DNA from: an uncultured Mitsuokella sp. | GTDB taxonomy: Bacteria > Bacillota > Negativicutes > Selenomonadales > Selenomonadaceae | NCBI GenBank assembly: GCA_945873115.1 | Contig: CAMCBT010000007.1 | Location: 1 to 57,373, forward strand | Direction: 5' to 3' | DNA: 57,373 nucleotides | Shown: positions 24,773-42,109 of the stretch, piece by piece | How the letters are laid out: each line of letters begins with the position of its first letter | Position numbering within the stretch: the stretch's first letter is position 1 | Made by a program: the position numbers and the translations under genes | The notes under the pieces: generated by a model | Database searches by the model: none | What the model was told of the DNA's origin: nothing | Seen by the model: only the letters and a program-made list of their open reading frames with translations

Positions 24773-24841
24773 GTACAAATTCATTTTGCCGGAATCCCCT
24801 CCCCATCTCTCGCAGGTACGCGCAATTTGCGCACGGTGATT

Positions 24842-25016
24842 TTCGGGCAGGCAGTTCTCCTGGCTCGGTTCATTGCTGCTCTGCGCCTTCCCGGAATTTC
24901 CTCCAGTGACCTGTCGATGGCTGCCCATCCAGCAGAGCGGCTCCCCTTACAGTGGCGGGACCGCGCCGGCTTATACCGGCTTCTCTTTTTAGCCTCGATA
25001 TCGAGGCACCTGCTCC
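24842..25016 (-). promoter_or_regulatory. Cobalamin (adenosylcobalamin) riboswitch
   Basis: On the minus strand the aptamer begins near GGTGCC and AAAAAGAGAAGCCGG (about 24995-24970) and contains the conserved core GCGGTCCCGCCACTGTAA (about 24966-24949). It ends with the B12 box GAGCCAGGAGAACTGCC (24866-24850). These are the diagnostic blocks of the class. It precedes cbiK and is followed by an intrinsic terminator, so high cobalamin should shut off the chelatase. Confidence 0.93.
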
Positions 25017-25041
25017 CTATGAATTTCTATCAACGAAATAT

Positions 25042-31971: not shown

Positions 31972-32245
31972 TTGTTTTTCCTCCTTTCTTGGCATTAAGC
32001 ACCCGGAAGAGAGCCTGCCGGCATAGGTCAGGCAATAACTGCGCTAAAATAGAGACGTCTTTCTCATCATTTCACCTTCTCCTGGGAGAGATGGCACAAG
32101 GGAACCTTTCCCAAGGGACAAAATAAATCCTCATTCGCACTCTGCTGCAACACGCGAGCTATTGCTTCTGAAGCCTCTTTCCAGTATACACCTTTCGATG
32201 TCTCTTGCCTAGGTCGTTTGGCAAGACTTTATGACATTTTACTAT

Positions 32246-32346
32246 GAAACCCCAAGAAGTCAAGCCGTAGGCGCAGACTGATTGGCTGGTTTCTTGCAAG
32301 GGCGGCGCACAATGTCCACAAAGTGGACGTTTGTGCGTGTAGTTTG
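32246..32346 (+). ncRNA. Candidate structured RNA, copy A
   Basis: Noncoding. Reading the plus strand: outer stem GAAACC (32246-32251) with GGTTTC (32288-32293); inner stem AGTC/GACT; mini-hairpin GCC-GTA-GGC; then CTTGCAAGGGCGG; then a long hairpin CGCACAA (32306-32312) with TTGTGCG (32331-32337) capped by GTCCAC-AAA-GTGGAC. The same layout occurs at 39648-39750 with compensating changes. A TTGGCA-16-TACTAT promoter-like sequence (32218-32245) precedes it, but its predicted start would clip the outer stem. On the plus strand it runs antisense into the M48 gene end; on the minus strand the same hairpin could act as that gene's terminator. Function unknown. Confidence 0.5.
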
Positions 32347-34143
32347 TTAAGAAAATTTTTTCTCCGCCGATTTTTTCGCCTCTGCCCTGGCCTTTTGCTG
32401 CTCTTCCCTCTCCCGTTGGAGGATTTTCCAGTCCTTCTCCGAGATTTCCTTCAGATAGTCCTCCGGTATGACGCGGAAGCCCTCCGGCGACAGTTTTTCG
32501 TACTTCCTGTACCAGTCGAGGGCCGCAGCCTGATCATTCATCTGGTCGTAAATCTCCGCCGTCAAGAGGAGCGAGGTGGGATTTTTCCCGTCGAGGGAAA
32601 CCGCCTGCTCCGCCGCTTTGGCCGCACCAGCCGTGTCCCCCGCCATGCGCCTGGCATCGGCGAGATTGAGAAGATTGTTCACACTGGCCCCATCGAGTCG
32701 CACTGCCTCCTCCGCCTCGGCCAGGCCTTCCCTGTAGGTGCCGAGGGCCGCCTTGGCCCGGCCCCGCACGGAGAGGGCTGCCGCCCGCTGTTTATCCGTG
32801 AGGTTTTCCAGGGCAAAGACTCGGGCAATCTGCTTCATTGCCTGCTCCGGCGCCCCCGCATCCACGAAGGCATCGGCGCTCTCCGTGAGCTTCTTTACCG
32901 CCGTATCCTCCTTCGGTTGGGCCGCCCCCCGGGCGGCGGACAGATCTGTTTGCCGGGCCTCCTCCCGATGCCTCAATGCCTCCCGCGCACCCGAGGTGCG
33001 TTCCTTCTCATAGGCCGCCGCCACGAGGGACTGGAGCTTTTCAAAGCGGCCGGCCCTTGCGACAAAGGTCTTCAGGGGCCCATAGACGGGGTCTGTCGTC
33101 AGGAAGTCCTTCGTCTCCGGGCGAAAATTCCAGCCAAGGGCAGAGTCATAGTCGTGGAAGGCCTTGGCGAGCCCCCCCGCCACGAGATAGGCATTTTCTG
33201 CCGTGTCGTCATAGTCGTAGCTGGTCCAGTCCACGGTGAGGAGGGGCACACTATCGATGCAGATGGTCTTGCCGCTCTCGAGGGTCACGTGATCCGCGCC
33301 GTAGTCCGTCATCATCTTCGCCAGCCGCTTTTCCCGAAGCCCTGTCTCCGGGTGATCGGAGAAATTGTCCTCCCCGATTTTGTCCGGATCCTCGTACTCA
33401 TTCGTATCCCGGGTCTCGTAGGTCATGTAGTAGGCCATGCGGGCCATGGCCGCCGCAGGCCCCCCGGGGTTGAAGCCTGCATCCGTCATAAGCTGGAAGC
33501 CCCCCGCATCCGCCTCGTACTCGGAGGGGAGCGTCACATTCTTCGCGATGGCATAGCCGGAGAGGCCATTGAGCTTGTTCCAGTCCATGACCCCCGTCTG
33601 CATATTGAGAAAGGTCATGCCGTAGTAGGCGGCCACCGCCTTGGCATAGTCCTTCGCCGCGTGCTGGCGGATGCCGTGGGTCATCTCATGGGCGAGAACG
33701 GCGGCAATCTCATCCTCATTCAGGTGCAGCACCCGCACGAGCCCCCGGTTTACGCTGATATAGTCCGTGGGGTAGCAGGAAGCGTTGAAGATGGAGGAAT
33801 CATTTACCTGCCAGGCAAAGGGCAGGGAATTTGCCGAAAGCACAAAGTCCCCCGTGGAAATCAGCCGATGCATGATACCGTCCACAAGGGCCGTGTCATT
33901 GCCATTGGTATCCCGCCCATTTTCCCGCACGTCTGCATAGCGGCTCCTCACCTGCTCTATGGGGTCCGCCCCATAGGCTAGCAGAGAGGAGAGCGTCGAT
34001 TGATACGCCGCATAGATCCCCAAGGCCTGGGCCGCAATCGCCCAGGCATCCGCCGCCAGCACGCGGCTGGGAACGAGTATCGAATGCACCGCAAGAAGCG
34101 ACGCGACAGCATAGACCTTCCACCTTTGGACAAATCGAAGCAT
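32347..34143 (-). CDS. Secreted M48-family zinc metalloprotease with TPR repeats
   Basis: 598 aa from the ATG at 34143 (GGAGG 8 bases upstream; the ATG at 34158 is inside the ribosome site). Signal peptide YAVASLLAVHSILVPSRVLA predicts export to the periplasm. M48 catalytic motif HEMTH near residues 152-156 and the third ligand in SEYEADAGG downstream. C-terminal third contains TPR-like repeats (AAALSVRGRAKAALGTYREGLAEAEEAVRL and two more) and ends with a Lys/Glu-rich helix. This resembles BepA/YfgC, which checks outer-membrane protein assembly, so a role in envelope quality control fits a diderm. Diverges from the glucosaminidase gene. Confidence 0.9.
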   Translation of the reverse strand: MLRFVQRWKVYAVASLLAVHSILVPSRVLAADAWAIAAQALGIYAAYQSTLSSLLAYGADPIEQVRSRYADVRENGRDTNGNDTALVDGIMHRLISTGDFVLSANSLPFAWQVNDSSIFNASCYPTDYISVNRGLVRVLHLNEDEIAAVLAHEMTHGIRQHAAKDYAKAVAAYYGMTFLNMQTGVMDWNKLNGLSGYAIAKNVTLPSEYEADAGGFQLMTDAGFNPGGPAAAMARMAYYMTYETRDTNEYEDPDKIGEDNFSDHPETGLREKRLAKMMTDYGADHVTLESGKTICIDSVPLLTVDWTSYDYDDTAENAYLVAGGLAKAFHDYDSALGWNFRPETKDFLTTDPVYGPLKTFVARAGRFEKLQSLVAAAYEKERTSGAREALRHREEARQTDLSAARGAAQPKEDTAVKKLTESADAFVDAGAPEQAMKQIARVFALENLTDKQRAAALSVRGRAKAALGTYREGLAEAEEAVRLDGASVNNLLNLADARRMAGDTAGAAKAAEQAVSLDGKNPTSLLLTAEIYDQMNDQAAALDWYRKYEKLSPEGFRVIPEDYLKEISEKDWKILQREREEQQKARAEAKKSAEKKFS

Positions 34144-34229
34144 TTCCGGCACCTCCATATTTTTTCCTCTTCATTCTATCGGACAAAGCATAGAGAAGCG
34201 TAAGAGGAAATGAAAAATTTCAAAAGGAA

Positions 34230-39647: not shown

Positions 39648-39750
39648 GAAACAAAGCTACACGCACAAGCGTCCCCGGAGGCCCTTGTGCGCCGCTCTTG
39701 CAAGAAACCGGTCAATCGGTCTGCCCTTCGGCTTGACCTATCGGGGTTTC
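39648..39750 (-). ncRNA. Candidate structured leader RNA, copy B
   Basis: Minus strand, just before the DUF3298-like gene. Outer stem GAAACC/GGTTTC (39750-39745 / 39708-39703); inner stem GGTC/GACC where copy A has AGTC/GACT, a compensating change; mini-hairpin GCC-GAA-GGGC; then CTTGCAAGAGCGG; then GCACAAG/CTTGTGC hairpin with a different GC-rich tip; then GTAGCTTTGTT and the ribosome site AAGGAGG. Position between the phosphatase stop and the gene suggests a cis-regulatory leader. I recognise no known riboswitch class in it. Confidence 0.55.
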
Positions 39751-39775
39751 TTTGGAAAACGGATTCTCCTCTATT

Positions 39776-40564: not shown

Positions 40565-41839
40565 TCATACTAGCCGGAGCATCCGCTGTGTCAGTCCTGC
40601 CTCCCTATGGGGACGGTCGCCTCGCTCGATTTCTTGCCTTGCCCTCTCCTCCAGTTTCTTAATTTCATCCACGGCATCCTCCAATCCGAGATGTGTGTAG
40701 GTGTTAAGCGTCACGCCGATTTCGCTGTGCCCCATGAGGTACTGGAGCGTTTTGGGGTTCATGCCCGACCGTGCCATGTTGCTGCAGTAGGTGTGGCGGC
40801 AGACATGGGGCGTGATGTTGGGAAGCTGGATACGGAAAATCTCGTTGTATCTTGCCACCATGTGATTGAACCGATGCTCCCAGTGCATGGCAACCAAGGG
40901 GAGCCCCTTCTTGTCCAGGAACAGAAATCCACTGTAACCGTCCACGATGCGCTCCACCCTTGGCTTCTCCCTATCCTCCAAGATTGCTTGGAAACATTCT
41001 GCTACATCCTCCGTGATGGGAATACGCCTCGTCCCGGCATGAGTCTTGGTGGGTTGTATGGTGTATCGCATATCTGCCCCTCGCTGAAGCTGATGGTCGA
41101 TGTTCACCACCCGATGCTCCAGGTCGATGTCACGCACAGTAAGCCCGCAGAACTCTGAGATTCTCATGCCCGTATGGAAGAGAATGTACACCACCTCGTA
41201 ATACTTGCAGTATACGTTATCATCATGAATGAACTTGAGGAATTTCCGCATCTGGTCTTTCGTGATAGCTTCCCTCGTCACACTGTCGTTCACAACCACG
41301 GTCGCCAACTGAAAATCGAAGGGGTTCTTCCGAAGGACATCATCGTCCACAGCCATCTGAAAGGCTGGACGAAGAACGCCCCTCACGGTCTTGACCGTAC
41401 TGTACCTCCTGCCGCTCTCCTGCAGCTTGATGAAGTATATCTTGGCATCCGATGTCCTGATGTCGCTTATCTTTTTGCCGCTGAACTCCGTCTGCTCCAG
41501 GAGTTTCTGCACGAAATTGTAGCCTTGCTTGGTGGTGCTGCGCACCCCCGTCTTGGTGGAAACATACCGCGCCACCAGTTCCCCTACGGTCATGTTCTTC
41601 CCCGCAGGGTCAAGCTGGCTGTCGAGGTCGTAGCCAATCTGCTTTTCCAGTTCCCGGAGGGAGAGGCATGGCTTCTTGCCGGCGGGCAACTTGTCAGTGG
41701 GTTCCAGCCGCCAGCTGTAGACGAACCTGGGTTTTCCGTCCACATGGTACTTGAACTGGTACTTCCCGTCTGCCCGTATGGATTCCCCACGCCGGAGGAC
41801 ACGGTGCTTGCTGTCACGTCTTTTTCCTAGGCTTGCCAT
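40565..41839 (-). CDS. int: Tyrosine-type phage integrase
   Basis: 424 aa from the ATG at 41839 (GGGAGG upstream). N-terminal arm-binding region (FKYHVDGKPRFVYSWRLEPTDKL), a SAM-like core-binding domain, and a catalytic domain with Arg in FHTGMRISEFCGL, HVCRHTY (His-x-x-Arg) and nucleophile Tyr in TLNTYTHLG. Organisation resembles the Tn916/phage integrase subfamily. It catalyses site-specific insertion and, with excisionase, excision. Its start overlaps the 3' end of the HTH gene by 26 bases. Confidence 0.95.
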   Translation of the reverse strand: MASLGKRRDSKHRVLRRGESIRADGKYQFKYHVDGKPRFVYSWRLEPTDKLPAGKKPCLSLRELEKQIGYDLDSQLDPAGKNMTVGELVARYVSTKTGVRSTTKQGYNFVQKLLEQTEFSGKKISDIRTSDAKIYFIKLQESGRRYSTVKTVRGVLRPAFQMAVDDDVLRKNPFDFQLATVVVNDSVTREAITKDQMRKFLKFIHDDNVYCKYYEVVYILFHTGMRISEFCGLTVRDIDLEHRVVNIDHQLQRGADMRYTIQPTKTHAGTRRIPITEDVAECFQAILEDREKPRVERIVDGYSGFLFLDKKGLPLVAMHWEHRFNHMVARYNEIFRIQLPNITPHVCRHTYCSNMARSGMNPKTLQYLMGHSEIGVTLNTYTHLGLEDAVDEIKKLEERARQEIERGDRPHREAGLTQRMLRLV

Positions 41840-42044
41840 TTGCCATCGCCTCCCTCTCATCCGGGTGCCGGAGGAAATACCGTTCCAGTTCTGCCCTCAG
41901 GATGATTTTCCTCGTTCTGAAATACGCCACAAACCCGTGTGGCTCTTCCAGCCAGCGGTAAAACTTTCTCTTGCTGAGTCCGAAGTGACGAGTTGCCTCC
42001 TCCGGTGTCAGGATGTCTTTCGTCGCCAATGGTATCGGCTTCAT
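41814..42044 (-). CDS. Small helix-turn-helix DNA-binding protein (excisionase-like)
   Basis: 76 aa from the ATG at 42044, 8 bases after AAGGAG. MerR/excisionase-like winged helix: LTPEEATRHFGLSKRKFYRWLEEPHGFVAYFRTRKIILRAELERYF. It overlaps the integrase start, so it is co-expressed with it and may act as a directionality factor or repressor of int. Two such proteins (this and the next gene) precede int. Confidence 0.75.
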   Translation of the reverse strand: MKPIPLATKDILTPEEATRHFGLSKRKFYRWLEEPHGFVAYFRTRKIILRAELERYFLRHPDEREAMANGKPRKKT

Positions 42045-42109
42045 CTGCATCGCTCCTTCCGTTTTTTTCATACCTATCTATCACTCGCCGTGGCAAATAA
42101 GTCAACGCC

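Follow-up and report, generated by a model that had tools for sequence, protein, structure and literature searches.

Short mobile hairpin repeats shape many bacterial genomes, and the only known engines for such repeats, to our knowledge, are Y1 transposases and RAYTs. IS200/IS605-type single-strand elements and integron cassettes both insert conservatively by a single exchange, and the attC core boxes read RYYYAAC...GTTRRRY. The REP family is defined by a 20–40 bp palindrome with a GTAG foot, together with a RAYT gene, and CGTC REPs occur without a dedicated transposase (PMC3733652). The same survey of GTAG and CGTC REPs mentions no Firmicutes, Clostridia or Selenomonas (PMC3733652), and Selenomonas is unmentioned in a survey of the HUH superfamily (PMC6006769). 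Here we describe a high-copy, recently active family of hairpin elements with exact empty sites and with a core sequence common to two classes of gut bacteria. No description of it was found in the open-access literature, which was searched with literal sequence stretches included; a prior description in subscription papers or preprints is possible.

The window analyzed is a stretch of 57,373 bp from a Mitsuokella genome (G000; 2.2 Mb in 109 contigs). An earlier note on this DNA had described two hairpin-rich sequences, copy A on the plus strand and copy B on the minus strand, and both sequences and their stems are present. The interval then assigned to copy A, 32246–32346, contains the sequence but leaves out the element's first five bases. 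Based on alignment of the genome's own copies and on empty sites in relatives, the complete 105-bp S-type element (ACTATG...GTAGTTT) occupies 32241–32345 (+). The TTT on its left flank (32238–32240, +) is attributed to the target from left-flank base frequencies and empty sites, although this shared triplet could equally be assigned to the element. Hairpin 1 (H1; 32246–32293, +) consists of an outer stem, CCAA/TTGG, a tandem GA, an inner stem and a GCC-GTA-GGC tip, as supported by the fold, by covariation over 51 sequences and by a covariance model score of 68.1 bits. It is followed by the linker TTGCAAGGGCG (32294–32304, +), which has the consensus TGYAAGG... in the S-type alignment; by hairpin 2 (H2; 32305–32338, +), with the form GCGCACAA..GTCCAC-AAA-GTGGAC..TTTGTGCGT, identified from the fold and pair counts; and by the right end GTAGTTT (32339–32345, +), delimited by own-copy alignment, flank frequencies and empty sites.

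Copy A folds far more stably than dinucleotide shuffles on both strands and as RNA and DNA alike (RNA, −46.2 kcal/mol, z −4.5; plus-strand DNA, −23.8, z −4.0). It abuts the stop codon of a minus-strand gene (32347–34158), consistent with the earlier observation that no plus-strand gene follows it. Copy B (about 39653–39755, −), located just upstream of a gene start, is a decayed S-type element with 82% identity to A, in which several core positions are broken (26.5 bits in the covariance model versus 68.1 for copy A).

What had been presented as a two-copy feature is far more abundant, with B as a degenerate member. Searching the window's own genome with copy A returned at least 47 dispersed places, and 12 copies, A included, are identical over all 107 bp searched. 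Some are head-to-tail dimers sharing the boundary GTAGTTT|ACTATG. Further copies were found in G001, which belongs to the same genus, in G005 and G020, and in other members of the window's family. A covariance model search detected H1 in 68 of the 151 genomes of this family, and the complete genomes G080 and G059 contain 98 and 110 H1 copies, respectively. Among 84,980 species genomes, the H1 core pattern matched at least 97 stretches. These lie in Selenomonadaceae (Selenomonas bovis and others) and Megasphaera micronuciformis, and in Clostridia such as Konateibacter, Mogibacterium, Clostridium sp. MSJ-8, Ohessyouella and metagenome-assembled genomes of Lachnospiraceae, Oscillospiraceae and Peptococcaceae. 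The pattern was absent from the viral contigs scanned, and copy A matched nothing in the phage and plasmid collections. The earlier note had recognized no known class, and this holds for Rfam: neither copy A nor any H1 hairpin at ten public loci reached a gathering score.

The core of H1 reads CCAAGA-stem-RA-GCC-NNA-GGC-stem'-GATTGG, with CCAA pairing with TTGG and leaving a tandem GA/GA. The 51 non-redundant H1 hairpins align without gaps, and 92.8% of cells pair across them. Sequence varies freely in both the outer stem and the 4-bp inner stem, yet pairing is retained. At pair 16-35, for example, all four Watson-Crick pairs occur (CG 16, GC 15, AT 8, TA 8). The covariation score is 0.463, whereas shuffles give 0.132 and slid registers no more than 0.087. 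This confirms the compensating base changes first noticed between two copies and shows them to extend far beyond what that pair could reveal; the stem covariation is seen in Selenomonadaceae and in many Clostridia. Invariance of the core was partly imposed by the search pattern, which fixed parts of it, whereas pairs 16-35, 17-34, 6-47 and 7-46, which hold most of the covariation, were left free.

Three element types share this hairpin. S-type elements are ordered as left end, H1, TGYAAGG linker, H2 and right end. K-type elements carry the CCAAGA..GATTGG core in both of their two hairpins. T-type elements (L233, L239, L242 and L243 in G080) join an S-type left end and H1 to a wholly different, long right hairpin, GGACATATGT..ACATATGTCC (z −9.2), which is followed by ..AGTTT. 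The right hairpin is exchangeable; H1 and the termini are retained. A longer autonomous element bearing both ends was sought and rejected, since the one-ended matches examined proved to be decayed copies or other H1 types. Two contig ends located upstream of copies have a 52-bp sequence in common, which yielded short related matches only.

The elements resemble REPs and REPINs with their RAYTs in being short, high-copy hairpin repeats of the chromosome, mostly extragenic, that occur singly and in tandem. However, they measure 105–190 bp rather than 20–40 bp and have no RAYT, and their GTAG sits at the 3' end, where the K-type does not share it. By palindrome length, GTAG foot and RAYT gene they fall outside that family, given their length, their architecture and the lack of a Y1 domain.

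To define the insertion site, flanks of insertions in two related complete genomes, G059 and G080, were joined, and both genomes were searched for empty sites. Several sites occupied in one were uninterrupted in the other. In the aligned pairs, 105–106 bp had been inserted cleanly, with neither duplication nor loss of target sequence; the L246 pair contains an additional, unrelated 10-bp indel. The insertion point is preceded by TTT and followed by a weak RYTATG. At 47 single insertions, a set that still includes a few tandem copies, the left flank is TTT (0.91–0.98 per base) followed by the element's R-CTATG, and on the right side GTAGTTT is followed by target N-C(.60)-T(.74)-A(.68)-T(.72)-G(.45). 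This arrangement is not a duplication, since the left core is constant but the right one varies. Terminal inverted repeats are absent beyond ACTA/TAGT, which is itself not kept in the G080 and S. bovis types. These footprints bear out the mobile repeat that the earlier note had listed third among its options, given the many copies and clean insertions at empty sites. An IS or MITE end with transposition footprints, which the note had named as a refutation of its RNA reading, is borne out in part: insertion is clean, yet the elements lack both the inverted repeats and the target duplication that mark a classical MITE.

Left boundaries lay directly behind a hairpin of at least 9 bp in 17 of 46 cases; the corresponding figures are 2 of 46 for right boundaries and 6% for control TTTRY sites. 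This excess shows a preference for the T-tract of intrinsic terminators. Group IIC introns likewise insert directly behind transcription-terminator hairpins; in contrast to them, the element is far too short and matches no intron in Rfam, and G000 has no reverse transcriptase. Retrotransposition by a group II intron, retron or DGR was accordingly rejected on the absence of RVT_1 from G000. A second dispersed repeat of ~165 bp (L275–L282) is present in ~30 uninterrupted copies in G059 and G080. It is a frequent target of S-type and K-type elements, with an S-type element at one exact position (L235) and a related 119-bp K-type element at another (L279 and L281).

We consider it probable that A and B are short, non-autonomous mobile DNA elements of Bacillota chromosomes whose hairpins are read in DNA by a trans-acting recombinase. 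The copy number with its recent identical copies, the conserved H1 fold and the clean insertion are observed directly. A recombinase supplied in trans would recognize the hairpins at the DNA level, probably in a folded single strand or in extruded form, and movement may proceed through a single-stranded intermediate. One conservative exchange at TTT|R could then connect the TTT of the target with the left end ACTATG... and the remaining target with the right end ...GTAGTTT. The topology of such an exchange would be that of IS200/IS605-type single-strand elements and integron cassettes. Two of the alternatives weighed below overlap in part with this explanation: movement by a Y1 enzyme and movement by a tyrosine recombinase would both be special cases of it.

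The first of these alternatives is a classical IS200/IS605 or RAYT satellite, PATE-like or REP-like, moved in trans by a Y1 enzyme. IS200/IS605-derived palindrome-associated elements (PATEs) resemble the element in carrying a pair of subterminal hairpins on the same strand, in inserting 3' of a short T-rich motif and in lacking both target duplication and inverted repeats; the exchangeable right hairpin also fits a Y1 satellite. Y1 genes are present in some H1 carriers, including six Y1 copies in G059. However, Y1_Tnp (PF01797) is absent from six copy-bearing genomes, G000, G001, G077, G080 (with its 98 copies), G151 and G129, as well as from Selenomonas bovis DSM 23594, and several of these contain identical or near-identical copies. 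The element also differs from PATEs in its long sequence-conserved hairpin core and in a weak RYTATG at the target's far side, a motif unexpected for a Y1 satellite. On this evidence, movement by a Y1 enzyme appears unlikely, though it deserves serious consideration.

The second alternative is that a tyrosine recombinase, either integron-integrase-like or the host XerC/XerD, moves the element as a cassette via a folded strand. As in attC sites and integron cassettes, the fold is more conserved than the sequence, units occur in head-to-tail tandem, and exchange takes place without duplication at a fixed point in a short core, here one common to the element end and the target (TTT|RYTATG), with the left core contributed by the element and the right core by the target. 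Recruitment of a tyrosine recombinase would also explain why no dedicated gene was detected. Yet the element ends lack the attC core RYYYAAC/GTTRRRY, there is no cargo gene, the copies are dispersed over the chromosome rather than gathered in one array, and no integrase recurs beside them among the matches listed (first 25 families). A comparison with dif-like cores yielded no unambiguous dif with the consensus used. We regard a tyrosine recombinase as doubtful, albeit a serious candidate.

More broadly, of the gene families listed as recurring beside H1 in the 97 public stretches, none bears a transposase signature. We tentatively propose, as a possibility short of an expectation, that H1 is what a so far undescribed recombination system of Bacillota recognizes: small cassette-like elements forming a superfamily would have their common core read as folded DNA and would insert without target duplication, by means of an enzyme other than a Y1 transposase or a reverse transcriptase. 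Given that several carrier genomes lack the known engine, a search for the enzyme is a concrete experiment.

The preferred reading of the earlier note was a selected RNA fold, acting as a small RNA or orphan leader. On such an account, the pairs would be selected in a functional structured RNA, either a small RNA or a cis-regulatory leader, and the multitude of copies would be a by-product. The strong fold and covariation of H1 would suit this, as would the position of copy B ahead of a gene. A selected RNA helix is expected to contain more G·U than A·C. In the 51 H1 hairpins, G·T and A·C are equally rare across all stem pairs (15 versus 13), and 142 distinct H1 copies with stem pairs unconstrained gave 37 G·T and 50 A·C, the outer-stem A·C count stemming partly from copies with a 3-nt bulge that shifts the register. 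The inner stem alone, at 26 G·T versus 13 A·C in the same 142 copies, would fit RNA-level selection. Because G·T is overall no more common than A·C, against the expectation for an RNA helix, the data lean towards DNA.

The genomic context points the same way. Dozens of copies occur in either orientation relative to neighboring genes, and the 107 proteins near the G000 copies belong to different ordinary families, none of which recurs. Together with the clean, transposition-like insertions and the lack of a matching Rfam family, these observations make a functional RNA improbable. Since the neighboring genes have no common function or orientation and G·T does not exceed A·C overall, we lean towards a DNA-level hairpin as more likely than an RNA one. 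Compensating base pairs in intergenic repeats, then, need not signify a functional RNA. With respect to replication, about 38 of 51 copies in G080 and 28 of 49 in G059 lie on one strand, as counted by hand with the origin assumed at position 1; these two genomes show no consistent bias, and the strand preference is thus not robust.

By analogy with RAYT and REP, an Rpn (PD-(D/E)XK) nuclease might act as the mover. An Rpn gene (L014:1148-2086, −) sits between element copies in G000, and Rpn is found in about 63 of 68 H1-positive versus 59 of 83 H1-negative family members. Yet Rpn is common without H1, and H1 lies nearby in 3 of ~45 Rpn neighborhoods, about as copy density predicts, so that this role seems very improbable. 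An Rpn-associated repeat was likewise rejected, as H1 is not enriched beside Rpn genes and about 42 of 45 neighborhoods lack it. An ordinary DDE-transposase MITE would be short, dispersed and high in copy number, as these elements are, but is hardly credible and was refuted by the empty sites, given the lack of target-site duplication, inverted repeats confined to ACTA/TAGT, and a fixed target and orientation to terminators.

Several further features were noted around individual copies. At L266 (G059:C1:1181250-1181800), an H1 element is directly adjoined at its right end by an IS200/IS605-like element. In the Peptococcaceae genome Lapin-032 bin47 (L090, L105, L115, L118 and L121), H1 lies beside or nested among GAGGGGTACCC repeats and further H1-like hairpins, which gives the appearance of a mosaic produced by insertion of elements into one another. 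Within the window itself, inspection by eye points to a tyrosine integrase with an excisionase-like small ORF at 40565–42071 (−), followed by phage-like genes on towards 57373; the region from 40565, ~0.8 kb from copy B, is probably a prophage or integrative element. Finally, the window's only Rfam match is a cobalamin riboswitch at 24833–25028 (−), which scored 103 bits.
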